NCBI GenBank assembly: GCA_003290165.1
Contig: QNQO01000200.1
Location: 930,001-994,000, forward strand
Length of the DNA stretch: 64,000 bases
Direction of reading: 5' to 3'
Origin: Berberis thunbergii
Taxonomy: Eukaryota; Streptophyta; Magnoliopsida; Ranunculales; Berberidaceae
The translations under genes and the position numbers were made by a program. The notes beneath the pieces are model-generated. The model worked only from the letters and a program-made list of their open reading frames with translations, was not told the DNA's origin and did not search any database. Position 1 is the first letter of the stretch. Each line of letters opens with the position of its first letter. This document shows, in pieces, positions 1-59,797 of this stretch.

Positions 1-282
1 ATAGAAGAAAAATTAAAGAAAGACGTTTAACTTGGTTTGGTCATGTGCGGAGGAGACCAAGCACGGCGCCAATTAGAAAATGTTTAGATTGGCAAGTTAA
101 TGGAGGGTGTAGACGGAGGGGACGACCGTTGAAAACTTGGATGAAGACGGTGAATGAAGATATCATTGAGCTTGGATTAGGTGAGGAAATGTGGGAAGAT
201 CGCATTGCTTGGAAGACCAAAATCCATGTAGCCGACCCCGAAAATCTCGGGAATGGGCTTTGATGATGATGATGATGATGAG
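1..282 (+). mobile_element. 3' end of an RTE-type LINE
   Basis: An open frame at 45-263 reads like the extreme C-terminus of RTE-clade reverse transcriptases. It has a basic stretch, a repeated Arg-rich RRRGRPLKTW motif, then WKTKIHVADPENLG. It is followed directly by a (TGA)n run at about 260-282. RTE LINEs end in short simple repeats rather than poly(A), so this is the element's 3' end. The 5' part lies outside the window. The element appears to have landed in the intron after the second exon of the ULP2-like fragment on the opposite strand. Family assignment rests on the end sequence only. Confidence 0.75.
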
Positions 283-341
283 GCAACTGAAAGCTTAATC
301 CCAAACCAAGAGCAAGGAAACCACTAACAGAACAGGTATAC

Positions 342-577
342 CTCTGGATAAGATTTTTGAGGCCTTTATGACTTCCTTTGATAGAATCCAAGTGCAATAT
401 ACAAGGTAACCTAAGTGACTTGCCAATTTCCTCATCTGAAAATTCATTGATGGAGATAAATGAAAAATCAGAAAATCACACACCATAGAAAGCAAACAAC
501 CAATATTCCATTTGAACTTGCCTCTGAAACCAACCACTTCCCCAGGATGGCAAATAACGAGCAAACTCCAATGAAGA
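342..577 (-). pseudogene. ULP2-like SUMO protease fragment (2 exons)
   Basis: Two exons are read on the minus strand. Exon 522-577 gives LHWSLLVICHPGEVVGFR, the C48 peptidase core around the catalytic His of the HW pair. Exon 342-435 gives EEIGKSLRLPCILHLDSIKG and then SHKGLKNLIQ, typical of plant ULP2/SPF-type SUMO proteases. The intron (436-521) has an AG acceptor and a GC donor (GCAAGT), so it looks like a GC-AG intron. The Asp and Cys catalytic regions are not present, so this is a captured genomic fragment and not a gene. The downstream intron is cut by the RTE LINE tail ending at 282. Confidence 0.8.
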
Positions 578-689
578 CTGGAAAAATATAAATCAATGAA
601 ATGTTTGTTCAATGATTTCAATCCAAATATTTGAAAAAATATATATAATAAGACATATGTCTTTGAAGAGGATTGGTATAATGTATTAT

Positions 690-800
690 ACACAATGTTT
701 TAAAAAGCGTTTTTCAACCTCAAGGTGGTCATGCTTTTTCCGAGGCGAAGCGTAGCCTCGAAGTGTAGCGAGGCGTTTTTTAATAAAAAAAATTAAAAAA
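690..800. repeat. unclassified short dispersed repeat
   Basis: The GC-rich block GCGAGGCGTTTTTT with CGAGGCGAAGCG repeats stands out from its AT-rich surroundings and contains short inverted copies (CGAGGC / GCCTCG). It resembles the ends of small non-autonomous elements. I could not define termini or a target duplication. Confidence 0.25.
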
Positions 801-950
801 TTACAAAAAAAAACAATTGAAACAATTATAGTTTATATTAAGATATTCTAGAAGACTTGCATGCTTGTTTAATCGTTATTTACTTATTTTATGAATTTCT
901 TTTGCAGATTGAATGAAGCACCAAAATGAAAATGAAGACTGAACATTTCA

Positions 951-1026
951 AAGTCATGCAAGGGACTACAAATAGCAAGTCATGCAAGGGACTACAAATA
1001 GCAAGTCATGCAAGGGACTACCAATA
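951..1026 (+). repeat. 26-bp tandem repeat, 3 copies
   Basis: The unit CAAGTCATGCAAGGGACTAC plus AAATAG is repeated about three times with almost no change (the last copy has ACCAATA). The near identity suggests recent slippage or unequal exchange within the transposon. No function is suggested. Confidence 0.85.
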
Positions 1027-1154
1027 ACATACTTTATAACATTACTTATATTCCAGAGAGTGTACTTCATTTATGTTAAAACAATTTTGAGGGCATGACA
1101 AACTTACAAAAAAGAAATGAAGAATGCTCTTTTCATCATCAAAATTATGGAACA

Positions 1155-1297
<143 letters not shown>

Positions 1298-2224
1298 TAT
1301 AAAAATAAAAACATGGCCATTTTGTCAGTAGAACAAATGAAGTAGCTTCAATTAACAAAGAAAGGATCATAACAAAAAAGTACCTACAGTCCATTAAAAC
1401 AAATAAATGATCATATGTTACCAAATTCAGGAGAACCTCGTTTTGAAATTCATAGATGCCTAGGCTCTGAACTTCTAAACTGTGACTGTTATCAAATGGA
1501 AGTAACAACATTTGATACATGGCCCTTACCAAAAAAAGATTAACAACGTCATTCATGTGACTGTCCTTGCAAAGCTTGTTAATGAGTACATTGTAAGTGA
1601 TTTCATTCTACCAATACCCATAACAAGTTCATGGGTTGGTCTAATTTATCATTCACACAAATACCAGCACAGTGCTTAGTGTAATATCACTTTGTTTTAC
1701 TATTCAAAAAACTAAAAACAAAAAAATCCACAATACCTAAATGGAAGTAATAGTACGTTAAGGGTAACAATGTCAAATTGTGAAACTTTAAAAGGAAATT
1801 CAGATGGCTGCAATATTTCAAGGCCTTTCTGCTTCAGTTTTGTGAACTATAAAATACAATATAAGATTTGTCTGATTTCTCTTATAGAGATATGACCAGC
1901 AAAAAAAATCAGAAACTTCTTAGAAGTGTATAATTAGAAGAAGATGAAGAAGTATAACTGTATAATTAGAAGAAGCAATTAAAACAAAAAAACAAACAAG
2001 AAAAGATGACCAATATAGAACAGACTGAAGTGTTGGAGTTTAATTTGTTTATTGGGAAAAGGAGAAGGAACAGACTGAAGATTTTTGGGAGGAGAAAGAG
2101 TTTACAAAAATAGAAATAGAACAGAGCTTATAGAACTTACAACACTGAAACAGAACAGAGCTTGGAGTTGGATCTTCGATGGTCGTCTTCTCTTCTCAAA
2201 CAAATTTAGCCGTCGTCTTCTTCG

Positions 2225-2353
2225 ATGGGTCGATTACCTTCTTTAGTTCGAGCTTCTCTTCTTCTTCTCTTATTCTTCAGTTCATCCTCTTCTTTGTCTG
2301 CAAATGAAATATGTGAAAATTCAGAAATATGTGAAAATTACAAGTTGCCATGA
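2225..2353 (+). other. short ORF with signal-peptide-like N-terminus
   Basis: ATG at 2225 opens a 42-codon frame beginning MGRLPSLVRASLLLLLFFSS, a classic secretion signal pattern of a basic start and an 11-residue hydrophobic core, ending near SLSA. It stops at 2351-2353 after two copies of a NEICENS-like stretch. The preceding 60 bases are CT-rich like a plant 5' leader. It could be a captured first exon, and it would be the only one on the plus strand of this element. Chance is not excluded. Confidence 0.3.
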
Positions 2354-2529
2354 AAACACAGTGAAAAAATGTGAATTAGTGCGCATAAATATATCTGCTA
2401 CAACCTAAGAGTGAAAATTCATCTGCCGAATGCTTGGTAGCTTCAAAGGAAATAACAAATAACTACTTTATTATTCACATTAATGCGAAAAACCATACTG
2501 AAATTTAATAGTGAGTTAGGATGGAAAAG

Positions 2530-2637
2530 ATACAATGAGGTCCAATTCTCAGTCCAAATTGCAGGCTTGTTAGGTGAGTTGGGGCCTATAAATGTTGATA
2601 CACATTTCATCCCATTGCATGCATTGATCTTGAAATT
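2530..2637 (-). pseudogene. beta-galactosidase (GH35) fragment
   Basis: The minus strand encodes INACNGMKC, then [16 protein letters not shown]. This is the GH35 plant beta-galactosidase segment in which a glycan-binding C-x-G block precedes the W-T-E-x-W motif carrying a catalytic glutamate. Only this stretch, about 35 residues, remains. The frame upstream and downstream is not beta-galactosidase. It lies between the kinase and BRWD fragments, on the same strand. Confidence 0.75.
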
Positions 2638-3041
2638 GCGAACAATACCTAATTTAAAATCAAAGAAAACTTGGATTTCAAAAAAACAATGAAGCAACAG
2701 TACATCGAAAAGTTAATCAACATTACTAGTTATTTTATTATCAAATGTTGAATTTTGACCATATGAAAACTAACTGCAACCATTTCTATAATGCTCATTA
2801 TAAATCTATAAGAGAACCCCAGTTTAGAGAATTTTAGAAGAAGAAGAACTGAATTATCAACACAACCCATTTCAAATAAAGTACTTCAAAAAAATACCAC
2901 CCAAGCGTTGTTTATACTAACAACCAAGTCAGTAATGTCACCCTTTGCAAGCAAAAGTAGAAAGCTAGTAAAAATATTGAAAAATTAAAAAAAGGAGAAC
3001 TTTGAAATCCACAAAAAAAAAAGTAAACTCTATTAACTCAC

Positions 3042-3151
3042 TTCATGCCCACGGCAGCCAGCCAATCAAAATGCAGTTTCCATCGACCAAATCTTTACAA
3101 AGCGATCATCAGAACCAGTAATGACATATCTTCTTGAGTGATCAAATGTGG
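3042..3151 (-). pseudogene. BRWD/PHIP-type WD40 protein exon
   Basis: A single exon is bounded by TTGTAG and GTGAGT. It reads TFDHSRRYVITGSDDRFVKI then WSMETAF, a stop, LAGCRGHE. This is the WD40 repeat of plant bromodomain and WD-repeat proteins, with TGA in place of a Cys codon. Splice signals at both edges are intact, so it was taken as genomic DNA. It is a different WD40 family from the fragment at 3651-3959, so the two are not parts of one captured gene. Confidence 0.75.
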
Positions 3152-3650
3152 CTACAAAATATAAATGATGTTATAATCAGTAGAACATCAGAAAACAGTG
3201 TAATTAATTGAGTCAAAGTGGCATAATGCATACTGGTGTTTAGTAGGTTCTTGAAGCTCGGGTTCAATCAGCAAAGTCTCTGAAAATAATGTATAAGATT
3301 GTCAGATAGTTAAGGGAAAAGTTATTAGAAAATTTTGTAACAAAAATAACCATCTAAACAAAAATCTGAACAGGCCGAAGATCCAAACAAAGATCTGCAG
3401 AGTCAAAATCAAGTCGAAGATCCAAATTCTCTCTAGCATTCACAAGCATTGATCCTTGGGGTTAATGGTCAGTCTTGAACAGGCTTGCTATGATCCTTGG
3501 GGGTTCACAAATTCAGTCACACCAAACCTATAATATCAGATTTGTAACCATTTATACATTTAGATCTAACTTGAAAAACAGACCCTTATAAAAAAAAGTT
3601 GGAATAGGAAAGAAATAGTTAATTGTAAGATTTTTACCAAAACAATATAC

Positions 3651-3959
3651 CTTCTCAGTTCCACCAGAAACAAGTACAATGCTACTTTCATTCATGGCTA
3701 ATGCATACACTGAATCTTTATGGCCTTTTGCAGCAATTGGAACATGTCCATGAGACTGGCTTGTGTGCAGAGGAAGGCTGTTGCTAGAACTAATAGAACG
3801 AGCATTTGTAACTATAAGGCCATAATTGCTGGAACCAATTATACCATTTGGACCGTCATCCTCCATTAAATTAGTTGACTTTGAGATCAGAACAGCCGCG
3901 ACTTCAAGATCCCATATAAATACCTCCCCTCCAAGACCACCTGAGGCAATGACATTGCT
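3651..3959 (-). pseudogene. WDR48-like WD40 protein exon
   Basis: The minus-strand exon is bounded by CATTTTAG and GTATAT. It is open throughout (103 codons), beginning NVIASGGLGGEVFIWDLEVA, continuing with a Ser-rich linker, and ending AAKGHKDSVYALAMNESS then VSGGTEK. The order of WD repeat, linker and next WD repeat matches plant WDR48 homologues (LRS1-type, partners of ubiquitin-specific proteases). Flanking exons of that gene are not found nearby. The exon upstream at 4039-4093 belongs to something else. This is the best-preserved frame in CACTA-A. Confidence 0.8.
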
Positions 3960-4038
3960 CTAAAATGCACGACACTACCTGAATTATTTACAAAGAAAAT
4001 ACGGAAATTCAATACAGTCATTGTACAAGTAAGCATAC

Positions 4039-4230
4039 CTTGTATCCTACACCTGTAGCAATTGAACCCATCTTCATTTGGCACTGATCAACCCTAAAAT
4101 CATTTGAGGTTAAAAAAAGAGGGCTACAGAAGAATGATCTCTCAACGGCCACCATTGCAAAACTTTGTCCATAATGTTCACCGAACAACTTCGTTAGCTT
4201 TTGCAGCTCAGGAAGATCACCACACCAAGT
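4039..4230 (-). pseudogene. IST1-like (MVB pathway) fragment fused to MCM7 piece
   Basis: The minus strand reads [20 protein letters not shown] then SFAMVAVE. This resembles the IST1 domain of ESCRT-III regulators (C-x-D-L-P-E-L, then a YG-x-x-F-A pattern). A second exon at 4039-4093, bounded by TTTTAG and GTATGC, reads [18 protein letters not shown] and may be the following IST1 exon. The first segment is joined in frame, without an intron, to the MCM7 fragment at about 4230. The IST1 assignment rests on a short pattern and is moderate. Confidence 0.45.
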
Positions 4231-4378
4231 AGGATTTGCAGCAGCAAGAACTGCGGTTCTTGCATTGAGAAAAGTAGTTATTCCAGCCTTAGCAATGCTG
4301 ACTGTCTGCTACTCCATCACTTCATGGATTGAAGTTCGATCAGATTCATCTCCATCTTGTAAAATTCATCAATGGCGC
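4231..4378 (-). pseudogene. MCM7: MCM7 replication helicase fragment
   Basis: The minus strand encodes CAIDEFYKM (a Walker B region, DEFDKM-like with D changed to Y). After a one-base shift it reads DESDRTSIHEVME, a TAG, then [20 protein letters not shown] and LAAANP. This is the MCM AAA+ core between Walker B and sensor 1, in the form found in MCM7. The frame is broken by the shift and by TAG in place of a Gln codon. It runs straight into the IST1-like sequence, so the arginine finger and the rest of the helicase are missing. Confidence 0.85.
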
Positions 4379-5502
4379 ATATTCCCATATCTGCGAGAAA
4401 TGGACCACAAACAGTTTCACTTGTAAATTCCAAAGTCCTTCCAAACCCTCAAACGAAACCAGAAAAGAGTCATTGGATCTCTAACTATTTGTTTATCTAC
4501 ATACAGTTTCAGATAGGGCAGTCTTTTCAAAAAGGAGTTTCAGATTGGACAATTGAAATGGGTTTTGTGCTACTAACAGGGTCATGATTCAGCTGCCATG
4601 TATTTAGTTATTGAGCCTCAACTTCTATTTTTTTTATGGGCCCAACATCAAATAGAATGTCTAAATTTTCTCAGGAAGTTGACTCAAAATCCCTTGAACT
4701 AATAAAAAAACCTGTCTAATTTTCATAAAACTATTATCTCAGGATTTACCACATCTCAGGATGAATAGGCCAAACCTGTCTATTAACCATTCTTTTAATT
4801 TTTCTTAGTTTTCATCAAGGTCTTTTCTTTGTCATGCTACTGCTGTCTAATTTTCTTCTACCTTAGAAGCCAATGATTGTTTAGTTATAAACAACTGTTG
4901 TATCTTGTTTTGAATCCTTCTTCGATTGTTATATATTGTAACAGGAATTACTTTATCTACAGGTATAGTGTCACCTTGCTTTCCTGGTGAGAGCTAGCAT
5001 AAATAACTCCATCAGTTACTAATCTTGTCATTAGTTATCTTACTACTGACACAAACTATCCATTAGGAGATCAAAAGGTTTGAGCTAGCAGTAATAGCTC
5101 AAGGAATCTTGCATAAGCATGTGTTTCACTGTAATTAGTACAAGTGTTCCACAAAGGCACTCAATCATTGCCATAAAAGGAAAACAACATAGTTTTATCA
5201 AAAGAAGAAGAAGAAGAAGAGGGAAACACCATAGCAAACAAAAGAATGGTGGAATCATTTATTTTTTCCAAAGATAATTATATATTTTATTGATATATAT
5301 TCCCTAGAAGCAAAGCAGTTATATGGTTGAGCTTTTGGTCGCACTTGTCCTTTTGAAACGCCGTACTAAAGAACGTCAGCAGTAAAATAGAATAGGATGG
5401 TAAAGTTGAAACAGAGAACAAACTCTATATTTGTAGGGATGGTTACTATTCCTCCTCGACGGGAAAATCATTCCTAGCAACTTAAGGAACCAAATATTTA
5501 TA
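4379..5502. other. intergenic part of CACTA-A, nothing recognised
   Basis: AT-rich sequence between the MCM7 and NAD-malic enzyme fragments. It holds an (AAG)n run near 5203-5222. A short plus-strand frame near 5328-5383 ends LLKRRTKERQQ; I do not recognise it. No exon with convincing similarity was found on either strand. Confidence 0.5.
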
Positions 5503-6800
5503 CTTATAGAGAGGATCTTCAAGCTGGAACCAACTTAAGAAACTTTTGATTATTGGTTCCAACATCTAGCATCACTGGAAGTATCTACAATAAAAATAAC
5601 AGTAAACTGAGAGTACTTGTAATGGTGTAATGGTATAATGGTATATGCAGCAGTATTCAAAAGTTGAAAGACATAATATATTGAAGACAAATAAAGAGAG
5701 GGTATAACGCCGGCTGTAGCAATATATATATATAGAGTTTCCCGATGGGTATTCCAATTCCCTGAACTCCAAGATCCCCAAGTCCAAGAATGTGACTTCA
5801 GTCTGTCACCACTATCAGTTCAACCTGTAATAAATGGAAGGTAAACCAAAAATGTGAAAAATATTAAAGAGTGCATACAGTAATTGTTCTCATTATGTAA
5901 CAGTCAATCCCAAAAAATTCATCAACATTCATAAAGGAATGATGATATTGTGCCAGAAGCAAACAAAAATCTAAGTAAAAACTAGAAATCAAACAACTCC
6001 AACTGAAATAACATTCCTTATTAAATTTCTATTTTATTTCATCTTATATGAAGTAAAAAAAAATTTCCCTCCACAAAAGTCTGACTCGTACATTTGTCCT
6101 AACCTAAGACTATCTAGATCTAGACTAAGAGCGTAAAAAAGAAACTTATAAAATCACCTTATGATGCAATAACCTATGCTCAAGGGAACTTGGAATTTTA
6201 GTTCACAAATTCCTCAACTCTTGAGTGAATTAAAAGTGAGGCAAGCTCACACTTTATGTAAGAACATTTTAGGAATAGATGTTATTATGAAAGAGCAGTG
6301 AAACAGTCCTAGCAAGTTACATGTTAATGTGATTCCAATTCCAAGTACTAAGAAACAAAAAACCAGGTTACAAAATTAGCTTCCATGAAGTGAACAGTAC
6401 ATGAAATTCGTACAAAGAACAAACCTCCAAGAGCAAACTAGAACAACTAATCCTCTTGACCCCTTACTAACCTGTTCAGATGGCCAGTTATAGGTCATGG
6501 ACATCATCTCTCCTTTATCCTTTACACTGAAATACATCCCACGTGGGCGTTTAAACAAGCCTCCATAGTTTTGACATACCAACCCCACAGTCGGATTGTA
6601 TTCTATTGGAGCAAAATTTTCAATGTTTTCAATAAGGACCTGGAGAAACCAAGTAAAGCGATTAGTTTAAGCTGATGAAATTCCAAAAGTCTAATGAAGT
6701 TTTAAGCTTTTATCTGGCAAACTTACTTTGTAATATAGTGTCTCGTTCCTGTCATGCAATCTGTTCAAGACTCTCCATTGCGCTAATGATGATACCTCAT
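5503..6800 (-). pseudogene. mitochondrial NAD-malic enzyme fragment, 4 exons with introns
   Basis: Four exons lie in order on the minus strand. 6727-6800 reads LAQWRVLNRLHDRNETLYYK. 6472-6639 reads from VLIENIENFAPIEYNPTVGL to MMSMTYNWPSEQ. 5700-5824 reads VELIVVTD, stop, SHILGLGDLGVQGIGI then PIGKL. 5503-5585 reads ILPVMLDVGTNN. This is the N-terminal half of malic enzyme, with the malate-site YNPTVG block and the GLGDLG motif. Splice signals are retained (CCAG, GTAAGT, CTCCAG, TTACAG, TTGTAG). Defects are TGA for Gly after VVTD, an AT-rich expansion with a frameshift in the third exon, and an insertion in the fourth. The C-terminal NAD domain is absent. Retained introns show capture at DNA level. 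Confidence 0.93.
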
Positions 6801-7507
6801 CTGGTTGGTATAGAGTATTCTTCACCACTAATTAGTATGACTCCACTACAATTTGAAATAATAAAAAATTCACCTTAAATCAATTGCCTTAAAAACTACT
6901 ACACTGTTATAGATAACAAAATTTTGACAGTGGTGAAACTCATGAACCATGATCAAGTGAAGAACTTTATTTTACAATTTCAGATTAAACAACTTTGAAG
7001 AGGCGGTGCACCCTCCACGAGTTAGTACATCTTGAATTGTGTCCCCTACAATCCGTCCCCTAAATTGCTTTGAGACTGGAAAATGTTTGAGACTGGAAAA
7101 ACTTATATAGCTTGTGGTATTTAATTTAATTCATTTTTCTTAAAATGTTTAGGTTTAGCTTTAGGGTGTTCTTCTTTAAATCAGTCATAACTTATTTCTT
7201 TGTATTATCTTATAATATAATTTTTTTAAACGGTTCATGAAATTGTGTCTGATGGAACGTTCTATGATTATTACTATTATTTAGATAAACCATTTGTGGT
7301 TTTGGTTATTATATGACACGAATCTCTAAAAACACAAAACAAACAATCACTACCATGCTTCGATTCCATTATTATGTAAAGAAGAAAACCCAATTATATA
7401 CAGGAAATCAAAGTCAAGCCAAAGGGACAACCAATTATCACGCATTAATCAAGCAATTGAAAACCCAACAATGAAACTAAACCCAAAAGCAAAAGGGGAA
7501 AACTCAC

Positions 7508-7748
7508 CAGTACGAACAACTTTACATCTAAAGCACCTGGTGGTGGTAGCGCATTAACAAACAGCACATTGAGTCTGGCGAACGGTGAAAACAGCTCCGT
7601 ACTGGGATGCAACTTCAAGCTCGGCCCTTGCCGTCTACTCTGATGCCATGGCCACAAGGCGCATGATCTCCTTCTTCTTCTCGACCCAATTCTGCCATTT
7701 TTGTCTGATTAAGAAACTCACAATTGACACAAAGAAGAAGAAGAACAT
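7508..7748 (-). pseudogene. UBP16-like deubiquitinase first exon with MYND finger start
   Basis: ATG at 7748 opens MFFFFFVSIVSFLIRQKWQN, an N-terminal membrane segment and then KKKEIMRLVAMASE. After a TAG comes TARAELEVASQYGAVF, then CAVC, a stop, CATTTRCFRCKVVRT and a GTGAGT donor. The order of a short N-terminal hydrophobic anchor, an Arg/Glu-rich helix and the first C-x2-C pairs of a MYND zinc finger is that of plant UBP16/17-type ubiquitin proteases. Two stops make it non-functional. It is the captured fragment nearest the right terminus, keeps its start codon, and has about 700 bases of upstream sequence that may include its old promoter. Confidence 0.75.
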
Positions 7749-8060
7749 GAAGCTAAGATCTGGAAACCCTAGATCTCTGAGAACCAGCATTGATGGAGCA
7801 CCACCGATGCATCCAATTCTGCCACCACAATCACTCGCTAGTTCTCACCGTCACAACTCCTTCGCTTCAGCTCAAATCAACTCACCTTCTCTTCACTTTG
7901 CTTGCTTGAAGAGTCGTTTGTTCCTGAGTGAGTGAAATGGAGAGGTGAGAAAAAGAAATTGGAGATATGAAAGAATGGTAGAATCCAGATCTAAAGGGAA
8001 CCAAAGCAGAGAGAGATAATGGCGTTGGATGAGATAAAAAGAAGATTGAAGGAGCACATA

Positions 8061-8170
8061 CATGTTGCTTGCAGAAGAAGATGGAGTGAAGGATGGTATG
8101 TTGCTTGCAGAAGAAGATTGGAGTGAAGGATGGTATGTTGCTTGCAGAAGAAGATGGAGTGAAGGATTGT
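8061..8170 (+). repeat. 36-37-bp tandem repeat, 3 copies
   Basis: The unit TATGTTGCTTGCAGAAGAAG plus ATGGAGTGAAGGATGG is repeated three times with one-base differences. It lies between the UBP16-like fragment and the right terminus of CACTA-A. Arrays in this subterminal position can be transposase-binding clusters in CACTA elements, but this unit has no clear palindrome. Confidence 0.8.
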
Positions 8171-8478
8171 TGTGTTCTTTCGATTTTGCTATGTTTTAGG
8201 GCAATAACAAGAGCAAGAAGGAGACAAGCAAGAGGTCGAGCAGAGAGAGGCGAGCAAGAGTGAGATGAAGGCGAGCTTTGTGGTTTAGTGTACTGAATGG
8301 GAGAGAGGAGAGATAAAGTCACAAAATGCAAAAAAAAAATTGGGAGCGCCAAAACCCCCGCGAGATTTCTATAGCGTTTTTCATTTTCTAAGTCATTTTC
8401 AAAATTGACTTCTTATAGTACATTTATAAAAAACGCTATTGGCAAATGCTATCAATGAGCATTTGTGTTGTAGTGTTA

Positions 8479-8671
8479 CCTTCCTCGGGTTATAGGCAGC
8501 AGACATGAGATAAGTAGGTATACTCAAAGTCATGTGCTTCATCAAAATCAATTGAACACCTTGGGAGAGCATAGAGCTCTCTCCAACCAGCAATTTTCTT
8601 TTTGTCATCAAAATAAATAGTTTTATATCTCCCTTCACAGATAGGCACACCCAGGGCTTTGAGAGGAGCAT
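8479..8671 (-). mobile_element. L1-type LINE reverse-transcriptase fragment
   Basis: The minus strand reads LSQGVQLILMKHMTLSIPTY then LMSAAYNPRK. This is the segment after the palm domain of plant L1 reverse transcriptases (the L-S-x-G-x-x-x-L-I-x-x-x-L-x-x-x-P-x-Y pattern). It stops exactly where CACTA-A begins, so the transposon inserted into this LINE. The continuation should lie beyond the left end of CACTA-A, outside the window. Confidence 0.7.
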
Positions 8672-9343
8672 TTTATGAATAAACCCAGTTTAATTATGCA
8701 TGTTGTCATCCCTAACTCGGATCCTAGGTAGTGTTTAGTTGCAATGAGGAAAATTGTATGAATAATTTTTGCACAAGTAAACGCCTTCCATGTGCATGCG
8801 CAATCTTGTGAACATTTAAGATTATTTTTATTTTGTTATCACCCTAAGAATAGATGTGAATTATAAACCCTGAAACTAACCCTATGGATCTTAAGCTAGT
8901 TTTCTAGATTCGAACTTTTAAAAACCCAAATTTTTAAACACACCAATTCCACCTTATTTTCTGATTTCTTTTCTTGTCTCCAAGTTCTACAGATGAGAAG
9001 ACTAAGGTTTCTTCTGCAATGGCATCTTCAAGCATTGTTTCTTTCTACTAGCTTTCTTTGATGAGCTTCGCATCCAAACATTCAAGGAGGCATGCTTTTG
9101 TGATTCACTAAAATTCATAGTTGCTTGCTCTTAATAATATCTTGTTAATAATCCGGAAGTTAAAAATAAAAAAAATATCAACTTTAGCTTAAAAATGGTA
9201 AATTTGCAATCATCTAGCTGGATTTGATTGTTTAAAATCACAATAGGGTTTGTGACTAATATTGACTTAGTGTTTATGGAATCACTTCCAAGCTCCAACA
9301 TCAAAAGACAAAGTAGAACAATTTATTTAATTATCAAAAATAT
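8672..9343. other. no recognisable content
   Basis: AT-rich sequence with no ORF, repeat or motif that I can support. Confidence 0.5.
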
Positions 9344-9512
9344 TAGGAAACCAGGTTTTTGCAACCATGTTTTGTAACCAGGGTGACGTGGCGCGATCTC
9401 GAAAGAATGATCGATGAAATCTCCAAAGAGTTTATGTGTATCTCGAGGTTAAAAAACCTCCTCTTATGACGCTACATCATCCTGGTTGCAAAACCTAGTT
9501 CCCTAGCCTCAT
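9344..9512. mobile_element. MITE with inverted ends, possibly hAT-like
   Basis: The left end TAGGAAACCAGGTTTTTGCA and the reverse complement of the right end, TAGGGAACTAGGTTTTGCAA, pair closely, followed by CCAGG on both arms. The arms enclose about 120 bases with no ORF. No clear 8-bp duplication is visible, so the superfamily is uncertain. Confidence 0.5.
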
Positions 9513-10131
9513 TCATTTAATTATATATTTTCACATTCACATAAAAACTAAAACAAACTAGAACCTTTCACATAAGCAAATTGAATGAAGTCTCCTGTAC
9601 TGATAACAAATAACATCAGCTACTATGAGGGATGGTCAAAATCTAATACTTTTTTTTTTTTAATTTAGACTCTCTATTGGAAATGGTCTTAGTGGTAGTA
9701 AAAAAGAATAATACTTGAAAAACTACCACTTCACTTGCAAAACTACTTTACTACAATATTTTTCATCCCCTTTCCAATTCTATATATATCGTTATTAGTT
9801 AATAACTTCTTGATCAAAGATCTTGGAATGGAGCATATGAGAATGAATCTAGGGTTTTTGAAGAAGAAATCCAATAAAGCTTTGTAGAGGAGATCTAAGA
9901 AAGCTTTGCAGAGGAGAAGATCCGATTTTGGTTGGAGTAGCTTGGAGAGATCAACTTCCCGATCTCTTTCGAGTCATTTTTCTTCTTCATTCAAGTTTCC
10001 TTCTTTGGTAATAAACTTAATCAAGTTCCCCCTCGACCAAGCCATCCCGGATATCTTTGGCTCTACTACACCTTTAGCTACACAAATCTCCAATGATTTC
10101 CACTGCCTAGAAGCATCCTTTTTAAATTCTC

Positions 10132-20880: not shown

Positions 20881-21039
20881 GATGATAAAGTTTACAATCA
20901 CTCATACGTTCACTCGTACAGCGTCCATAGGACAATAAACTTGCTTTAAGATAGGCTTTACCTCAAAGTCATTTGTTTCTTCTCCAAGTGAGAGTCAACA
21001 AGTAGTTAAGGCCTTCAACGCCTGTTATTTCCAAGTACA

Positions 21040-21664
21040 AATCCAATAGCTCTGACAAGTTATAATATGAAACTAGATGACCTAGCTAAGTCGCCTCTTA
21101 CCTTGGACATTGTTCCCCACGATGAATAGCTGATGGTGGATTAGAAATTCGTGTACTTCTTGGAGAGGGAGTTGAATGTCAAGATTGATATTATTGACAA
21201 CCGTATACCTAAGCATATTGAGATGCCAACCAAACAGAAGGAGTTGAATGTGAAGATTCATACTATTGACAATCCCCGGCCTGGGATTTGAAGATATTTT
21301 CTGCTTCAATTGATAATGAATAAGCACACGAATGAGTGGTGTTTGCATTGGTTAAATCATTTTTCATTAATATAAACGTTTGACGATCTTTCATACCCCT
21401 TCTTACTTTCCCCCAAAAAGCAGTTGAATGCGAAGGTTGATTCTAATGACAATCCTAGGCTTGGGGATACTGATGTCAATGGCCCAACTGAAGAGGGGGT
21501 TGAATGCGAAGATAGATACTATTGACAATCCTAGGCCCAGGGATACTGAGATGTCAAAGGCTGAACTGAAGAGAAAAATGAATGTGAAGGTTGATACTAT
21601 TGATAATCCTAGGCCTAGAGATAGATCGATGTCAATTGCTGGATGGTTTGCTAGCCTGCCATGA
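21040..21664 (+). pseudogene. degenerate unknown gene with IDNPRPRD repeats, copy A
   Basis: The YKSNSSDK and LEREL block is present with stops (DE-stop-LMVD-stop). It is followed by four tandem copies of a ~24-residue unit whose core is LNxKxDTIDNPRPRD, separated by TEMSKAELKRK-like spacers. The last part, 21428-21664, is open and ends SMSIAGWFASLP. The unit looks like an expansion of the LERELxVKIxxIDNR block of the 19259 ORF. Function is unknown. Confidence 0.5.
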
Positions 21665-22082
21665 TTGATGTAAGACCACGAAAGGATATGATCTTGAGTG
21701 GGTGAATAAGGCACATCTGCTAACTCAATTTTGCTTGAAATGTATGGTTGGATAGCAGCTAAAGAGTTATTTTAGCAAGATGAGAAAGCATTTGGATTGT
21801 GCCACTCCTACATGTGTGGTGCCAACCGCTTCGAGTTGTTTCATCCATATGGCATTGGCTGGGATAGTTATGCTTATGCGTTAAAAGTTCATATATATGT
21901 TGCAGGGCATTATAAAAGTGAAATTGTATTGCTGGTCTGAAGTCATTAATTAGGTGTCTTAATGTTATGTGCTACCTATGTTTGGGATATCAAATACTGT
22001 CTACAGTATCAATGTCTTTACGAAGTTATTGTGTAATTGATAACTTTCTTATGGAAAAGAACATTATTTTTCCACAAACATT

Positions 22083-22244
22083 CCAGGCAGTCAGGGGTAT
22101 CAGCCATTTTTTTGTCAGGGTTGGGCTCTTTTACACTTCTACCCTTTCTATAAATGATGTTTGTGGTTGCGTTTTAAAGAGAATGGGTAAAAGTATAAAA
22201 GAGCCCAACCTTGACATAAAAAATGATTGGTAGACCTAGCTGTC
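22083..22244. mobile_element. MITE, TTTGTGGTTG family (copy A)
   Basis: The inverted arms are about 60 bases long: left AGGCAGTCAGGGGTATCAGC..GGGTTGGGCTCTTTTACACT, right the complement of ..AAAGAGCCCAACCTTGACA..CTAGCTGTCTAG. The centre, TGTTTGTGGTTGCGTTTTAA, is unbroken. It is the intact reference for the copy split by CACTA-C. Confidence 0.8.
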
Positions 22245-22532
22245 TAGACTTACTCATTTTTCCAGCTTCATTTTATTTTTACACGTATTTGATAGTGGTA
22301 ATTGATTAGTAAAGTTGTGCTAAACGCCTTCTAGTTTGTCCTTCTGGTACTTTCCAAAGCATAGGTCCATCTCAACATGAATAATCTCCTTATCATACAG
22401 ATTCTCAGAAATCACAATTCTTGTGAAGTGTTCTGAAGGGCAATGTCAATATTGACATAGATATATTTTGTTTTGAAATTGAAAACTTTTTATGTAATCA
22501 AAGATTCTAATGAAAACAAGTTCAATAATACA

Positions 22533-22840
22533 CACTACACCAAATTGGCATTTTAGTAACAATCCCCAAAACAGTAATACTTTTCGGCTATAACGGTCCA
22601 CCAAACAATTTCAAATCAAAAATAAATTTAGTTAAAAAATTTAAAAATAATTACACAAAAAAAGGTTACAACAAATTGAACCACCATGAATAGTATCACT
22701 TGTATTACCATACTCTTCATGGTGATACAATTATTGTATCACTTTGTTTGTGAAAATGTATAAAATTGTTTGGTTGATTGTTACAGCTCAAAAGTGATAT
22801 TGTTTTGAAGGTTGCTACAAAATGTCAATTTGGTGTAGTG
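22533..22840. mobile_element. CACTA-type MITE, 308 bp
   Basis: The left end CACTACACCAAATTGGCATT pairs with the right end, whose reverse complement is CACTACACCAAATTGACATT. It has no ORF. The bases outside are ACA and ACT, so the 3-bp duplication is imperfect. Related, more damaged copies occur in copy B at about 59309-59545 and 60239-60390. Confidence 0.8.
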
Positions 22841-23435
22841 ACTTGGTTGTTTCTCATTTGATGTGAACTAATGCTATGTAAATTTTTCGGTGTTCGAGTG
22901 CCATGAGCAACATTCAAGTTGTATTTTACTAGATCTTGAGGAATTGCTTCGAATTTTCATTTTAGAATTCTCAATATTTTAGCAGCTGGATAAGTCTAAT
23001 TCATAGTTCATGATGATCTTCAAGTAACTGAATTGGATTGATGATGAGACAAACTAGACAAAAATATAGAAAGCATATTTTGAAGAATCCAGGACGTCTA
23101 CACCGGCTCATAGGGTTTAGTTGTACACCCTACAAAATTTGGGGTTCAGAAACACAGCTCACCTCACAGGGACCCTCCCCCATCTTTCAGGCGTACAACA
23201 GGCTTTTCCCCGCATTTTTGTACGATTTAGGAGTATAAATGGTAAGGTTGTGGTTAGCATTAACTTGTAGCAGGAATGAGCAATCGTGACCAAACTGATG
23301 AGTGAAGTTTAGGTTTGACAAGGATATGAAAACTTGGACAATATATCAAATTGCTCACATGATTTTCTTTATGGACGATGCCAAGTTCACTGCCACAAAA
23401 GTTGAGATCATTCCAATATTTCTAGCTGATTGAAT

Positions 23436-28250: not shown

Positions 28251-28781
28251 CTAGGCAACCAGACTTTATAGCCACTTTTTGTCAGGTTTTGGTCTTTTTA
28301 CACTTCTACTCCTATATTTAATGTTTGTGCACTACTACAAATATTAGCTTAGGTAACGCTACTTAGATAGCGCTTTTTTAAAGAGCTATCCAAGTGGGCA
28401 CTAGGATAGCGCTTATTTGTATCTAAAAAAAAATCAAAAAAAAAAAACACTACAATAGCGTTTTTTTTTTTTTTTTTCAGTTAAGCGCTATCTTAGTTAT
28501 GTCTTAGATAGCGCTTTAAAAAACGCTATGAGAAAAAACATTACCAAAGCTACCATAGCGCTTTCGAACCGCTATGCTACTTACATTTAGGATAGCGATT
28601 CGAAGCAGCGCCTAAACCCCTAAACCATCGAAGCAGCGCCCCTGTTCTCCCAAACCTAACAAAAAAAAAAAAAAAAGGAAACGGCGCCCTTAAACCACCG
28701 AAACAGCCACCGTTCAAGCTGCCTCCAAACCCACCGTTCTCCATCGACTTCTCCAGCCAAGCAGCGGTTTCTTCAGCCAAG

Positions 28782-34639: not shown

Positions 34640-36240
34640 CAATGGATTGCCCTTGGAATTGTGACAATAGGGTGATCCGTTGTCCCCATTGTTATTTGTT
34701 ATAGCCTCGGAGGTTCTTAGAAGAGGATTGTTGGCCGCCTTTGGAAAAGGTGATTTCTGCTATTTCTATATGCCTAGACACTGTCAGCCCATTACACATC
34801 TTTTGTACGCAAATGACACCCTGGTGTTTCTTAATGGGAGAAAGGCCTATATTACTGGTTGCATGAAACTCTTGGAAAAATATGAGAAATCATCGGGACA
34901 AAAAATTAATGCAGATAAAAGTTCTTTTATGATTGATGAAAAAGCTGAAGTGGAACAAGTGGTGACAGTTAAAACTTATACAGGTTTGCTACTTAAATAT
35001 TTGGGGGTTCCAATTTATCTGGGTCGTTGCAAGATTATATATTTTGATGCGCTGATCAGTAAAATTCAAAAGAAGATCAGTGGTTGGAAAGCTAAGCTCT
35101 TATCTCCGGGTGGGAGATTGATTTTGATTAAGCATTTGTTGAGTTTTATTCCAGTTTATACAATTAGCACAATGTGTGTCCCTAAGCAAGTTATTTTCAG
35201 AATCTATAAATTACTGGCGGATTTCTTTTGGGGAGATTGTGAGGGAAGACAAAAGAAGAAATTGATTTCTTGGAATAACATTTGTTTCCCAAAGTCAAAA
35301 TGCGGGCTTGGGGTTAGAAACCTTGATACGGTCTCTAGGGCTTTTCGCATGAAAACACTATGGAACTTGGTTAATGCGGAATCCTTGTGGGCGAATTTCA
35401 TGAGAGCTAAATATTGGAAGAAGGACGTCCATTTGATTTATCAAGAAGTGAAGAATAGTGTCTCGGCTTTTATGAAGGAAATCATGAAGTTTAAAGCTGT
35501 TTTTGTTGGAAGTAGTATGTGGCGGATTGGTAAAGGAAATTCGAGCTTCTTTGCTTCAAACTGGAATCTCACATATGTTTTTCTGAAAATGGGTGGTTTG
35601 GAGTTGCAAGATATGCGGCCGTCAGTGGCGGAGGTGTGTAATGGAGACTTCGAGTTGGTGTCACCAGCTCTTAGAGACTTGGCGAGGACTTTGTTTGATG
35701 ACAGTTTAAAGGGTAGTGAGCAAGGAAAGAACCAATGTGTATGGACCCCGGATTCAGATGGATTTTTTAGCTTGCATTCGACATATGAACTAATTCGTGA
35801 TAATAAGGGTAGATCCATGTTGTTTGACAAGATTTTGCGGCCTATTCTGCCGTCCAAAATCTCGGTATTCATTTGGAAGCTCTTATTAAGAGGTGTCCCA
35901 GTTGATGGGGAATTATATAGGTGCGGGATTAGCTTATCGTCGAGGTGCTATTGTTGTCACTCTCCGAGGGTGAAAACCTTGACTCGTCTTTTTCTTGAGG
36001 GAAGCCTAGCTAATGGGATTTGGCGACATTTTGAAGCGATATTTGATATCCATGTTAGAAGGCCGGCAAAAATTTATACTGTGTTGACTGTTTGGTTTAG
36101 TTAGGCCAATAAGAATTCTTAGGTGGGTCTCCTTTATTATTTAATGTCTATGTTTATCATATGGGAGATTTGGAAGCAACGTTGTCGGGCTGCTTTTGAT
36201 AATGGAAAGCCGAGTATGGGATAGTTATTGAATGCAACTG
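34640..36240 (+). mobile_element. L1-type LINE ORF2 fragment, truncated at both ends
   Basis: The frame opens at GDPLSPLLFVIASEVL (RT palm) and includes HLLYANDTLVFLNGRK, in which the catalytic YADD is changed to YAND. It continues with GWKAKLLSPGGRLILIKHLL, a thumb/connection region and a zinc-binding RCYCCHSP segment, then ends at TAG near 36102. A remnant (LMSMFIIWEIWKQRCRAAFD) continues to about 36225. The frame is open for 474 codons. It is closely related to LINE-3 ORF2. Endonuclease and RNase H are absent. Confidence 0.9.
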
Positions 36241-38418: not shown

Positions 38419-39379
38419 ATGACTACCACGGACAGGCCACCGGGGAGCGAGGGAGCCACAGTTGGCAAGACGACCGGCACTCCTTCGTTTGCACAGATTG
38501 TGGGACGGTTCAGACCTAATGAAGTTGATGAGTCACCCACAGACCATGTGTATTCAACTTTTGATGGCAAGCCATCTGTTTCTCTATTGAATCTGGATCT
38601 TGAAAGAGGCAATATTTATATGAAATATGCTTTGGTGATGAAGTTTGCTCAAGAAAGACCTTACCTAAGTGACATTAGAGATGCAGTGACTAAGTATTGA
38701 GGCATTCCCGGTGAATTTACAATTGGTGCTTTAAACTATCGACATGTTCTAATCAAGTTTGAATCTGAAGAAGCAATGATCAAAGCTATGGAAAGAGAGA
38801 AATGCAATATCAAAGGGTACCCTTACAGGCTTTCAAAATGGGATTCTTCTTTTGATAGCAAGAGAGACTCCCGCAACAAACCGATATGGATCAAACTCCC
38901 TCATTTACCATTGGTTTTTTTCCAGCCTAAACTTCTCAAAGTAGTTCTAGAATCGATTGATAAATTTCTAGCCATGGACAACCTTACAAGGCACCTCTTA
39001 AGCTCATCTGTAGCTAAGGTTTGTGTTTCGATGAATATTTCAAAACCGCTTCCAGACAAAATATGGATACAAGCTCCAGATCTACCAATACCAGGTTTCT
39101 GGCAACATATTAGGTATCATTTTCCACCATTGTATTGCAACCAATGTGGCCTTCAAAACCATACTGATCAAACATGCTGGGTGAAACACCTTGAGTTGAA
39201 GAAGTCAGTACCAACTCAACAACTATCGGATAAGGAAAAAAGTAAGGAGGGGTCAGAAAATGTTGACCAGGAAGGATTCAAAAGAGCAGAAAACAAGAAG
39301 CACAAGAAACAATACTATCAACAAAAGACTACAAATATTCCAGTCATTCCGGATTCGGCTAATGAACACAATGATGGAG
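38419..39379 (+). pseudogene. LINE-2 ORF1 5' part (DUF4283 + CCHC knuckle)
   Basis: The frame begins MTTTDRPPGSEGATVGKTTG, then PSFAQIVGRF. It continues with the DUF4283 region (IYMKYALVMKFAQERPYLSD; GALNYRHVLIKFESEEAMIK; NKPIWIKLPHLPLVFFQPKL) and a perfect CCHC knuckle, CNQCGLQNHTDQTC. The only defect in this part is TGA at 38698-38700, where the related LINE-3 ORF1 has Trp. It is cut at codon HNDG by CACTA-D. The frame continues without change at 48390 when the transposon and one GAG copy are ignored. Role: RNA-binding protein of the retrotransposon particle. Confidence 0.88.
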
Positions 39380-39398
39380 CACTACACCAAAAACCCCC

Positions 39399-39792
39399 AT
39401 TAGCAACGGTTCTATACCGTGGGCGTAACCCATTGCCACGGCTAAGAGCCGTGGGCTACAGAGGCGTCGCGAAATTATTTGTAACGGCTCAAAACCGTTG
39501 CTAAATGTTTAGCAACGGTTTTATGCTTGAATAGGGGTGGTGATTTTCAGCATTTAGCCACGGTTTTAAACCGTTGCAATAAGCATAGCAACGGTTTTTA
39601 GCCGTGGCAAAAATAGCCACGGTTTTAAGCCGTGACAAGGTGTAGATATTAGCAACGGTTTTAAACCGTGTCTAATTAAGTAGCAACGGTTTTAAGCCGT
39701 GGCTAACCATAGCCACGGTTATAAGCCGTGGCAAGGTAGCCACGGTATTTAGCCGTTGCAATAGTTAGCCACGGTTTAAAACCGTGGCAAAT
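39399..39792. repeat. left subterminal hairpin repeat array of CACTA-D
   Basis: About fifteen copies of AGCAACGGTTTT or AGCCACGGTTTT, each followed by the inverted half AAACCGTGGC or AGCCGTTGC. Each unit can fold on itself. The right array at about 48032-48362 has the same unit. Spacing between units is about 22 bases. Confidence 0.9.
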
Positions 39793-41420
39793 TTTTTTTT
39801 TTTTTTTTTGCTATCAAATGACTTTGAGTCATTGAGTCAAAATCTATCAAGTAATGTAATATGCATAACAATTATTCTTTCATAAACGCTTTTGGTATTG
39901 TTCTATCTCCACTACTATATTGCAACCAACATGCGTGTTTGGGGCACTTAGCAGCCATGAAAGATGAAATGTGAACACAAGAAGAATAACTGTGGGTATT
40001 ATTTAATAAAGAAAATCAGGGGATGAAGAACAAGTGAGTACCGAGTTATACAATCAAAATAACCACTTGATAAGCAGCACTTCCACGATTCAATAACCTA
40101 TGGCCGAAAGCATGCTTTTTGACAACAGATAAATTTAGAGCAGGACCTATATCTAAAAACCAACATTGGAGAGCAAACTCTCAACAAAGTTCTTCTCACT
40201 CGATTCTTTTAATAAAGAACTGGAAACCTTCATTTATCAAATATTGGACATTGATACACATTCCAAACTATTAGGGCTGTGTTTAGGTCATACTACTTGT
40301 TTTACATATTGCTCTACATAATCTCCATTACCTAGTGATAAGTCTTGCATAATCTGCCCAAAACTTGCAAACCTCTTCTAAGCACCAATTGTTGTCAACA
40401 AATCTCCAATTCCTCCAGCTGAAGAAAGCCTCCCCATCCCATGATCCCTGCAGCTGAAACACGCCCCCAATCAGTTATGTTTTTGGCCAAAAAATAGAGC
40501 CTAATAACACTCTGTTTTGTGAAATAAATGCAGTAGGCATTCTCAGCTGAAACACGTCCCCAATGTGCTCTGTTTCAGACTGAAAACAGATCGAGCCTAA
40601 TAAAACTTTGTTTTTTGACCAAAAAACAGATTATCTGTTCGCCATTGATACTCCACTTCACCATTTCCAAACAATTAAAACCACACATATTCATTGCAGT
40701 TTCCTCAAATATGCAATCTTGTGCGAATGATCAAAGATAATAAAAACTTACAGGAACTACCTCTACTTGTTTCAACTGTGGTAATGAATCAGGATGGGAC
40801 AAATCTACAGAGGGGAAACGGTTTAAGTTGAAGCAAGTTTGTGGATAATACCAAAGGGTGGTTGGTATACTCTAATTACCATGTTCACGTCGAACTACAT
40901 CATGTAGATACTACGCACTGTTCATGATCATGAAGAAATCTTTCGTCAGCAACACTGAACTTCCTCTTAGTGCATGGCATGGGGACCTTCTTGACGAAGA
41001 GATGATGAGTTTGAAATGCCTTGAAGGGCTTTTATTGGCCCAGTCCACCTTTCTTTGAGAAGCTTTAGCGATACTCTTCAACGTACCCTTAACAATAAAG
41101 CCTGAACAAAGAATACTAGAGCACTTAAGCACAAATTAATTTCTGCCGCCACAATTATATCAGGAAGGCTAAAAATTTGGTGATACAGTATTACCTTTTA
41201 TGCCTGGTGAATGTCCAAATTCTGAGATTCAAATATCAGCCCCGGACCTCCTCGTGATTTCGACATCAATCTTTCTTGTGAACAGTGTGATGGTTAAGCT
41301 CTGAGATATGTCAATAGTTCAATCTAGCTAATAGAACATTTCAAGTATCAAGCTTGAGGTAAAAATATGTTAAAGTATTTCTGTATTTGTATAATCATAA
41401 AAAAAAGAACCCGTCTAAGT
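39793..41420. other. CACTA-D interior, nothing firmly recognised
   Basis: Mostly AT-rich. On the minus strand near 40920-41010 a frame reads VKKVPMPCTKRKFSVADERF then LHDHEQ, which looks protein-like but which I cannot assign. Direct repeats of GCTGAAACACG.CCCCAAT occur near 40450 and 40545. Confidence 0.4.
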
Positions 41421-48031: not shown

Positions 48032-48362
48032 CTTATTAGCAACGGTTTTTGGCCGTTTCCCCTTATAGCCACGGTTTTGAGCCGTTGCTAACTATAGCCA
48101 CGGTTTTAGACCATTGGCATTATAGACACAGTTTTTAGCCGTGGCAAAGACACCAACGGTTTTGAGCCGTGGCCATAGTTTTAGCCACGGTTTTAAACCG
48201 TTGGTAATTATAGCCACGGTTTTGTGCCGTGGCAAATAAACCAACGGTGTTTAGCCGTGGCCAATTTTTTTTTTGCCACGGTTTTAGGCCGTTGGTAATT
48301 ATAGCCACGGTTTTAGGCCGTGGCAAATTAACCAACGGTTTAAAACCGTGGCCATCTTGGCG
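48032..48362. repeat. right subterminal hairpin repeat array of CACTA-D
   Basis: The same 22-base unit as at the left end (AGCCACGGTTTTNNACCGTTGG and variants), about twelve copies, ending 27 bases before the terminus. Confidence 0.9.
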
Positions 48363-49152: not shown

Positions 49153-50078
49153 AATCCAATAGAACTAAGAAAGCAAACAAAAAGTACAAAGGCTTAGTTG
49201 ATTTATAGTTTAGGTTTGTTTTTGGTGAATCCTCTCTTATGAGAGTTTGTTTCAGTATTTGCTTTTACTTTTGTTTCATTTGTGTAAAGGTTTTGGGGTC
49301 CTTAAAACCCAGCTCGATTTCCAAAAAAATATTAATTTAAACTTTTTCCAATGTATCAAAGCAATGGAAAATTTATATTGGATTAAAGAGGAAGCTAAAT
49401 AATTTAATCAGATTCTCTAATGGGCCCTCAAATAACACAAAATTTGTTTTGAGATGCTTTTTCAAAAGATATTACAGCATGTAACACAATAACATATTTC
49501 AACAAAACATAATAAACACAATCTCTAGCATAGTAAATATAGTAATGTGAGAAAATGATGTAGAGTGATGACTGTTTCAGTGGTAACGCATTGAATAACG
49601 CATCCAAGTGGGCTCTGAGGCGATTCTGAAGGGTTTTTTGGGCATTCTCCAATTTTTTGGATCCTCTGATCCCAGCCCTTCCTCTTTCCTAGGAATTAAT
49701 CTGAGCCGCTGCTTCTTGCGCCGCTTTGGGCAGACCTAGCCGCTGCAACCCATTACGGCTTTGCGCCGGTATCTCGTTGCTCGGGGGCTTCCCCGATCCG
49801 GCTGGGCTTCCATCTCGCCTGTTGGGATTCAGTTCGCGACACGATTTGCCACTTCGTCTTGATCTGTAGACCCGATCGGATCCCTTTTCCGGTCTGTTAC
49901 GACCCTCTCTCTGTTACGAATCTTGCACTGTTACGCATCTGACGGTCTGTTTCCTAATCTCGGGCTGTTACAAGTCGTTGTTCCAACTGATTAACGATTC
50001 GTAACAGGTCTGTTTCGTTTCTGATCCGTTTCTTACAAGTCTTCCATTGGTTTTGGTACCATATTTCTTCTTGATGTG

Positions 50079-55400: not shown

Positions 55401-56614
55401 TGGTTCATCGGGATCTCCGAAATTTAGCGCGTGACCTTTATGCAGATATCCTACGTGGGGAGAACAAGGAGAAGGACACATGTGTGTGGGTTCCAAACCT
55501 GAATGGGCTTTTTTCGCTTCAGTCGGCATACGAACGGTTACGAAGTCATGGGCAGGTCAATGCATTAAGTCATTTTCTTTGGCACGACATTTTGCCGTCC
55601 AGAATATCAGTTTTTGTTTGGAAAGTGATTCGTCGAGGAGTACCTGTGGACGGTGAATTATACAGATGTGGGTTGAGCTTAGCCTCTAGATGCCACTGCT
55701 GTACCTCGCCAAAACAGGAATCTTTGAAACATCTCTTTCTTGATGGAGAACTGGCAAGGCAGGTGTGGAATCATTTTGATAGGATTTTTGATGTTCATAC
55801 TCGACGCCCAGCAGAAATATCTACGGTTCTTGCCATTTGGTTCAAGAAAGCTAAACGCTCTTCGCAAACAGGTGTGTTTTTCTTCCTCACTCCTATGTTC
55901 ATTATATGGGAAATTTGGAAACAAAGGTGCAAATGTTTGTTTGAAAATGCTTCTCCCAATTCTGCTTTTGTGATCTTGAATATTCGGCGCCAGTTGAGAA
56001 TAGCTAATAAGTTTATAACTCCCAAACAAGTTAGCAGTAATAAGGCTCCCTTACAATTTTTGGGGTTGGAAGTGCTTCCTGTTAGAAGGAAGTCGGTTCA
56101 ATTTGTTTTCTGGCACCCTCCCCCTAAAGATTTTGTTGCGCTTAATATAAAAGGTTCCTCTCGCAAGGATATGATAGCCGGTGGTGTGATTATTCGTGAT
56201 CCTCGTGGTTTAAGTGTTGTTGGAAAATATATTTTTTTCGGCACAAGTTCCCATCACAAAGCGGATTTTTTGGCTCTCTTAGAAGGTCTTCGCCTCTGTC
56301 TCCTTTGTGGAATTAACAAGGTGGTTATTCAAACAGATTCTGACTTGGTTTGTGGTTGGTTTAAGGATAGTTTCACAACCCCATGGCATTTGGAGAACAT
56401 ATTGAAAGAAATCAAGCTGTTGACAGAGAAGATGACGATTTACTGTCAACATATCTATAGAGAGGCAAATGCGGTCGCATCTGCATTAGCCGATAGAGCT
56501 TTTCATGTTCTTGGAACAGGTTCTTTTATTGGAGCTGATCTTCCCAGGCGAATAGCTGGCTTGATCGTGCTTGATAGAGTTCAAACGGCGTATCTTCGTC
56601 ATGGGGAAGACTAG
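52431..56614 (+). pseudogene. LINE-3 ORF2 (endonuclease, reverse transcriptase, RNase H)
   Basis: The endonuclease starts MIENFLFWNARGI and keeps its blocks IAEP, GGDFNTYLNSREK, RIWARLDRIFTN and SDHCPL. A frameshift lies near 53515 (between ELYWIQ and EFKEGDACTKYFFA). RT blocks are NSAPGPDGFTADFY, DFRPISLCNVIYKI, KIDMEKAYDR, then TGA at 54251-54253, then RQGDPLSPFLFIIASEVL and HLLYADDTIIF with intact YADD. A zinc-binding segment (RCHCC) and a C-terminal RNase H-like domain (VIIRDPRG .. VVIQTDSDLVCGW .. REANAVASALADRA) follow. Key RNase H residues appear changed. Only two lesions separate ORF2 from an open frame. Confidence 0.92.
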
Positions 56615-58470: not shown

Positions 58471-58865
58471 TTGATGTAAAACTACGAAAGGATATGATCT
58501 TGAGTGGGTGAATAAGGCACATCTGCTAACTCACTTTTGCTTGAAATGTATGGTTGGATAGCAACTAAAAGGTTATTTTAGCAAGATGAGAAAGCATTTG
58601 GATTGTGCCACTCCTACATGTGTGGTTCCAACCGCTCCGAGTGGTTTCATCCATATGGCATTGGCTGGGGTAGTTATGCTTATGCGTTAAAGTTCATAGA
58701 TATGTTGCAAGGCATTATAAAAGTGAAATTGTATTGCTGGTCTTAAGTCATTAGGTAGGTGTCTTAATGTTATGTGCTACCTATGTTTGATATCAAATAC
58801 TTTTACAAAGTTAGTGTAATTGATAACTTTCTTATGGAAAAGGACATTATTTTTCCACGAAAAAT

Positions 58866-59796: not shown

Positions 59797-59797
<1 letters not shown>

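Follow-up and report, generated by a model that had tools for sequence, protein, structure and literature searches.

How did pieces of ten unrelated plant genes come to lie on one strand beside the end of a CACTA transposon? This question is raised by a stretch of 64,000 nucleotides of Berberis thunbergii (assembly GCA_003290165.1, contig QNQO01000200.1, positions 930,001 to 994,000, forward strand), called the window below, whose positions 283–8475 hold such a block on the minus strand. Based on its sequence, this block is probably the right part of a non-autonomous, gene-capturing CACTA transposon (Pack-CACTA) with about ten host-gene pieces, inserted in a long interspersed nuclear element (LINE).

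Gene pieces in the block

Starting from the CACTA terminus, the pieces follow one another in the order below, with the evidence for each in brackets.

7791–8040, minus: CT-rich stretch upstream of the UBP16-like ATG, possibly a 5' leader (resemblance, by eye)
7508–7790, minus: UBP16-like first exon with start codon, GT donor at 7507 and two in-frame stops (protein search, tblastn, splice scoring)
6727–6850, minus: malic enzyme exon A, right edge approximate (in-frame splice to exon B)
6472–6639, minus: malic enzyme exon B (Pfam, PDB, splice reading)
5700–5824, minus: malic enzyme exon C, left edge approximate (Pfam, splice reading)
4225–4390, minus: MCM7 exon part, AG acceptor at 4391, one stop, one frameshift (Pfam, PDB, splice scoring)
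4139–4224, minus: IST1-like part, joined in frame to MCM7 without an intron, edges approximate (Pfam)
3651–3959, minus: WDR48-like exon, GT donor at 3650 (PDB, splice scoring)
3042–3151, minus: BRWD/PHIP-like exon 1, one stop (Pfam scan, protein search, splice reading)
2903–2942, minus: BRWD/PHIP-like exon 2, left edge approximate (in-frame splice to exon 1)
2527–2628, minus: beta-galactosidase (GH35) piece (PDB)
1533–1607, minus: pentatricopeptide repeat (PPR) piece, the tenth gene (Pfam, below cut-off)
1188–1296, minus: CTR1/Raf-like kinase piece, AG acceptor at 1297 (matched core 1214–1285; remainder and frameshifts by eye)
522–577, minus: ULP2-like exon 1, GC donor at 521 (alignment to protein P0001, splice reading)
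342–435, minus: ULP2-like exon 2, GT donor at 341 (protein search, splice reading)

A previous reading of this DNA, made without database searches (the sequence-only reading), had named nine of these fragments on a shared minus strand. Pfam, PDB and protein matches for the individual pieces bear this out, but the count missed the PPR piece. The UBP16-like exon has two matches among 131 candidates, named from Stephania and Nyssa, and spans residues 1–92 of one relative and 1–95 of the other. The Stephania USP-domain protein (P0002) is matched at 68% over 92% of the searched region (E 6.5e-13), and tblastn gives 63% over 92 amino acids (aa), starting at residue 1; no relevant Pfam match was found in the frames of this piece. 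The piece closest to the terminus is thus a first exon with its ATG. For the malic enzyme, which we take to be the NAD form, matches were obtained in Pfam (8.4e-14 and 3.5e-7) and PDB (3.9e-16), exon A having no Pfam match of its own. The MCM piece was recognised by Pfam (1.8e-9); when the reading is lengthened, with one stop written as X, MCM7 takes the first seven places in PDB, while the shorter frame ranks MCM5 ahead of MCM7. One open reading frame (ORF) holds both Pfam MCM (residues 1–28) and Ist1 (residues 27–57), a direct MCM7-IST1 fusion. For WDR48, the ten best PDB sequences all carry that name. The BRWD/PHIP piece is matched at E<=1 by 378 of 379 candidates, with many of the 120 listed being named BRWD or PHIP, and its NNAWV is common to Ranunculus and Aquilegia and not found in grape. 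The kinase piece matches CTR1 in PDB (1.6e-7) and, below the cut-off, Pfam (0.0019).

The weakest labels are IST1 (Pfam 2.4e-4, below the cut-off), PPR (Pfam 1.8e-4) and beta-galactosidase. The latter reaches E 0.0038 with two of five PDB sequences, the other three having E>=0.82, and its Pfam GH35 value is only 0.11, outranked by an unrelated family at 0.07. The frame at 3890–4087 gave no family match, and an additional exon is suspected around 4038–4090 within the cargo.

For the ULP2-like piece the earlier label was retained and its structure corrected to two exons. It has a single match among three candidates, a protein of 950 aa (P0001) with domain PF02902, presumably the C48 peptidase (74% over 65%, E 1.1e-8), and its frames match neither Pfam nor PDB. 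ULP domains are also carried by CACTA elements and Mutator-like elements (MULEs), according to published work. A transposon-borne ULP domain was rejected here: the match is to a 950-aa protein aligned across two native exons, and a host gene is therefore likelier.

The strand bias was examined using all stop-to-stop frames of at least 30 aa in 283–8475. Among the 77 minus-strand frames, Pfam recognised six unrelated gene groups at E<=0.01 (malic, MCM, WD40, Ist1, PPR and kinase), and none among the 78 frames of the plus strand, where the best E value was 0.012. The signal is therefore one-stranded. With random orientation, ten out of ten pieces on one strand have a chance of about 0.002, a simple figure which assumes independent captures and from which domain-less pieces on either strand could have escaped. 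No transposase family was found at E<=0.1 in these 155 frames of the visible block.

In-frame stops occur in the UBP16-like (two), BRWD (one), MCM (one) and malic enzyme (two) pieces, and frameshifts were seen by eye in MCM, the kinase and malic enzyme exon C; therefore no intact chimeric protein is expected. The block is not a working gene and its cargo is decayed. Gene 3' ends were not noticed among the pieces, though no systematic test for them was made. A blastn comparison of 1–8700 with the window (E 1e-3) returned only itself and a 37-bp repeat, so no donor copy is present in the window at that level.

CACTA terminus and insertion site

The right side of the block is built as follows.

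8046–8167, no strand: about three tandem copies of a 37-bp unit, the first copy 70% alike, between the terminus and the first gene piece (repeat search)
8330–8475, no strand: subterminal region with short palindromic repeats (inverted-repeat counts against shuffles)
8460–8475, minus: CACTA right terminus, CACTACAACACAAATG read from the minus strand (exact-match search)
8476–8478, no strand: TTA, the expected half of a 3-bp target duplication (sequence)
8477–8663, minus: flanking LINE reverse-transcriptase sequence, interrupted at the terminus (similarity to the LINE ORF at 34671–36101)

The right CACTA terminus proposed earlier is supported by CACTACAACACAAATG with its adjoining TTA. This sequence has one exact copy in the window, and three more places resemble it with 3 mismatches. 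In the last 146 bp, five exact inverted 8-mers were counted against a shuffle mean of 0.64 (five of 500 shuffles reach five), and the observed number of exact inverted 7-mers is reached by 22 of 500 shuffles; a long repeated subterminal motif was not found in 8330–8475. Beyond the terminus, Pfam recognised no LINE in 8477–8663. The minus-strand similarity to the LINE ORF is collinear in two frames, runs from 8663 to 8477 and ends at residue 174 of 477. An older sequence is thus interrupted at the terminus. On these features the terminus looks real, and the right flank would be half of an insertion site.

Introns and composition

Native introns are retained in the ULP2, BRWD and malic enzyme pieces (GT-AG, and GC-AG for ULP2), whose in-frame splicing upholds the earlier claim of kept introns. 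The spliced ULP2 reading is gap-free over 49 residues against P0001, and that of BRWD over 50 residues against three plant proteins (one stop as X); the malic enzyme reading continues through two introns, by the frame criterion only. Judged by these introns, the cargo pieces would be genomic and not retro-copied.

Eight donors were placed and seven scored, the GC donor of ULP2 exon 1 being excluded from the GT test, and nine acceptors were placed and scored. Acceptors were left unplaced for malic enzyme exon A, IST1, beta-galactosidase and PPR, the UBP16-like piece being a first exon, and donors for malic enzyme exon C, MCM7, IST1, BRWD exon 2, beta-galactosidase and the kinase. The mean score is 7.0 for the donors, against 4.2 for the GT sites of the block, and 12.2 for the acceptors, against 7.8 for its AG sites; both p values are 2e-5, the floor of the test. 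Each site had been positioned manually close to where similarity ends, which makes these values optimistic.

On the plus strand, the exon-masked stretch 283–7507 (5,660 bases) shows an AT skew of +0.139, and it is thus T-rich on the gene strand. None of 97 overlapping 7,225-base windows elsewhere reaches this value, the maximum absolute skew there being 0.112. In 500-bp bins, the skew is positive in 13 of 15 within the block (the other two are slightly negative) against 55 of 111 elsewhere. The spaces between the exons look intron-like in this respect.

Two further repeats lie within the cargo. A GAGGCG-rich stretch at 690–790 resembles what we take to be a short repeat common in plant intergenic DNA, and about three tandem copies of a 26-bp unit are located between the ULP2 and kinase pieces (951–1028).

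Left side of the block

1–281, plus: LINE-like 3' end with a (TGA)7 tail, adjoining the ULP2 piece (sequence, repeat search)

This stretch, presumably of the RTE type, gave no relevant Pfam match. The sequence-only reading had placed the block at 283–8475; its right limit is indeed the terminus at 8475, but the LINE-like stretch abuts the block on the left and 283 is therefore not an element end. Since that stretch ends at about 281 beside sequence downstream of the ULP2 exon, it may have landed inside the cargo, and this suggests that the cargo continues leftward past the window edge.

A CACTA left end between two fragments had been named beforehand as an observation that would break the single-element reading. 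None was found: of the six plus-strand CACTA pentamers in 1–8475, not one is preceded by TTA or goes on to resemble the right terminus. One of the six, at 6844, is a CACTACAA, the only one among them. It was rejected as a left end, having no TTA and no continuation of the terminal repeat and sitting at the start of the malic enzyme reading.

Alternative explanations

A single element is the best reading of the block, albeit unproven, and we infer its left end, its capture history and its past mobility. Several points weigh against it. Besides the optimism of the splice p values, not all splice sites are strong: the score of the ULP2 exon 2 donor is reached or exceeded by 40% of GT sites, and that of the WDR48 acceptor by 35% of AG sites. 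Only the right terminus lies in the window, and TTA is seen on the right side only. At the left edge of the window stands the LINE-like stretch, past which continuity is unseen. Finally, a capture model leaves the sense-only arrangement unexplained.

In another reading, two or more gene-capturing elements would be adjacent or nested, with the right CACTA end owning only part of the cargo. A single end is visible, and stretches such as 4500–5650 and 1650–2500 could hide decayed ends. We consider this improbable, as neither a CACTA end with TTA nor a pair of long inverted repeats was found in the block, and the pieces found share one strand and one skew, though two of the 15 bins are slightly negative. 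A Pack-MULE is likewise not favoured by the search of 1–9600, where the longest inverted pair is AT-rich, with 34 nucleotides at 71%; an arm beyond the window would escape it. It also seems unlikely that a Helitron, lying within the CACTA element or next to it, is the owner of the cargo. Several gene pieces can be gathered by Helitrons too, and stepwise capture has been argued for a maize Helitron reported with eight predicted fragments. Against this, a scan of 1–9000 on both strands for CTRRT after a hairpin gave only one weak, AT-rich 3' candidate (minus, 5066), which lies inside the block, and no Helitron-like 5' start was seen on the minus strand of 7790–8475; these scans are crude, as is their control, in which 20 shuffles of both strands gave two matches in all. 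Local pseudogenes, or a decayed chimeric gene from ordinary duplication with the CACTA end as a coincidental neighbour, would be consistent with the stops and frameshifts of several pieces. Ten unrelated genes represented by one to three exons each, together with the direct MCM7-IST1 fusion, are unlike tandem or segmental duplicates, however, and this explanation is very improbable.

A decayed remnant of a Pack-CACTA-like element, of a known kind, remains the most likely identity of the block. In such an element, genomic pieces of about ten host genes would have been gathered together with their introns, every one of them in the same orientation. Published work on Pack-TYPE elements suggests, by analogy, that the build-up might have involved repeated insertions of related elements close to one another, after which the DNA between them was mobilised as one unit. 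The element would then have been inserted into the LINE, its left end being located to the left of the window. Transcription, if started from the UBP16-like end, could have given a spliced chimeric RNA.

A bolder idea, possible and in our view rather doubtful, is that the cargo is laid out like one artificial gene: a leader and first exon at the terminus, then spliceable internal exons, all in sense and from ten donors, with CACTA cargo being filtered or captured by direction. If true, such a filter might exist because transcription through the element is left unharmed only by pieces that are in sense and can be spliced. With ten donors that agree in direction and keep their splice sites, the choice of strand in captured cargo would become open to testing. 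This orderly sense-only, first-exon-first layout is the part that deserves attention. Gene-capturing transposons contribute to exon shuffling in plants, and genome annotations would tend to split such a block into several genes.

Other features of the window

Three plus-strand regions, 34671–36101, 50075–51241 and 54254–56611, hold long, open frames for LINE reverse transcriptase (RVT_1 and zf-RVT, with RVT_3 as well in the last) and a DUF4283 frame. A second DUF4283 frame (38701–39501, plus) adjoins a cluster of short repeats at 39550–39793, which, together with those at 48034–48355, match each other and themselves, also reversed, like the subterminal repeats of DNA transposons. Segments of about 2–3 kb at 20998–23289 and 57879–61010 are 85–92% alike in pieces, a repeated element inside the window. 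A palindromic stretch (71%) of about 208 bp at 28345–28552, holding CACTACAA at 28448, could be a small inverted-repeat element. The tRNA and Rfam scans of the window gave no matches.

Comparison with known systems

The following comparison draws on the portions available of the open-licence literature surveyed. The cargo had been called exceptional by the sequence-only reading, which is too strong, as multi-gene capture with introns is documented for CACTA elements (Tgm-Express1, maize Pack-CACTAs). A CACTA element with ten fragments was not encountered in that literature; most queries were not aimed at counts, and this is no proof of absence in print. One candidate for nine captured genes was dismissed, the wording 'nine genes' being used in another sense. 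Ten fragments exceed the explicit per-element counts in the literature so surveyed.

On wheat chromosome 3B, 140 CACTA capture events have been described. In a grapevine survey, PPR capture in a CACTA family occurred in orientation opposite to the transposase; sense-only cargo is therefore not a rule. The maize Helitron ZmhelA1 has eight predicted gene fragments, and maize Helitrons resemble the block in holding several gene pieces per element. They differ in that the boundary of the block is a CACTA terminus and no convincing Helitron end was found. The Tpn1 family of Ipomoea nil consists of En/Spm elements capturing host genic regions, with an average length of 7,081 bp and a maximum of 40,619 bp, one of them with chimeric transcripts. 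Their ends have 28-bp inverted repeats and subterminal tandem repeats of 122 and 104 bp, whereas the block has about three copies of a 37-bp unit. Pack-CACTA or Pack-TYPE elements of Arabidopsis, maize and rice are non-autonomous and carry coding DNA from several loci, with CACTACAA ends in Arabidopsis; of the superfamilies compared, it is the maize Pack-CACTAs that contain DNA from the largest number of distinct loci. Neither a maximum per element nor a rule on strand was met in the literature surveyed on them. In the block, ten host gene pieces lie on the inner side of the one CACTA end that is visible. Tgm-Express1, the soybean CACTA element of the wp allele, is reported to be 5.7 kb long and to carry five gene fragments with exons and introns that are spliced into host transcripts; these pieces act as exons and would therefore share one direction. 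Like it, the block, read as a CACTA element, would hold exons along with introns from several host genes that are unrelated. Tgm-Express1, with five genes, has both ends known and is transcribed, whereas the block is at least 8.2 kb long, carries pieces of ten genes, shows one end and is known from sequence.

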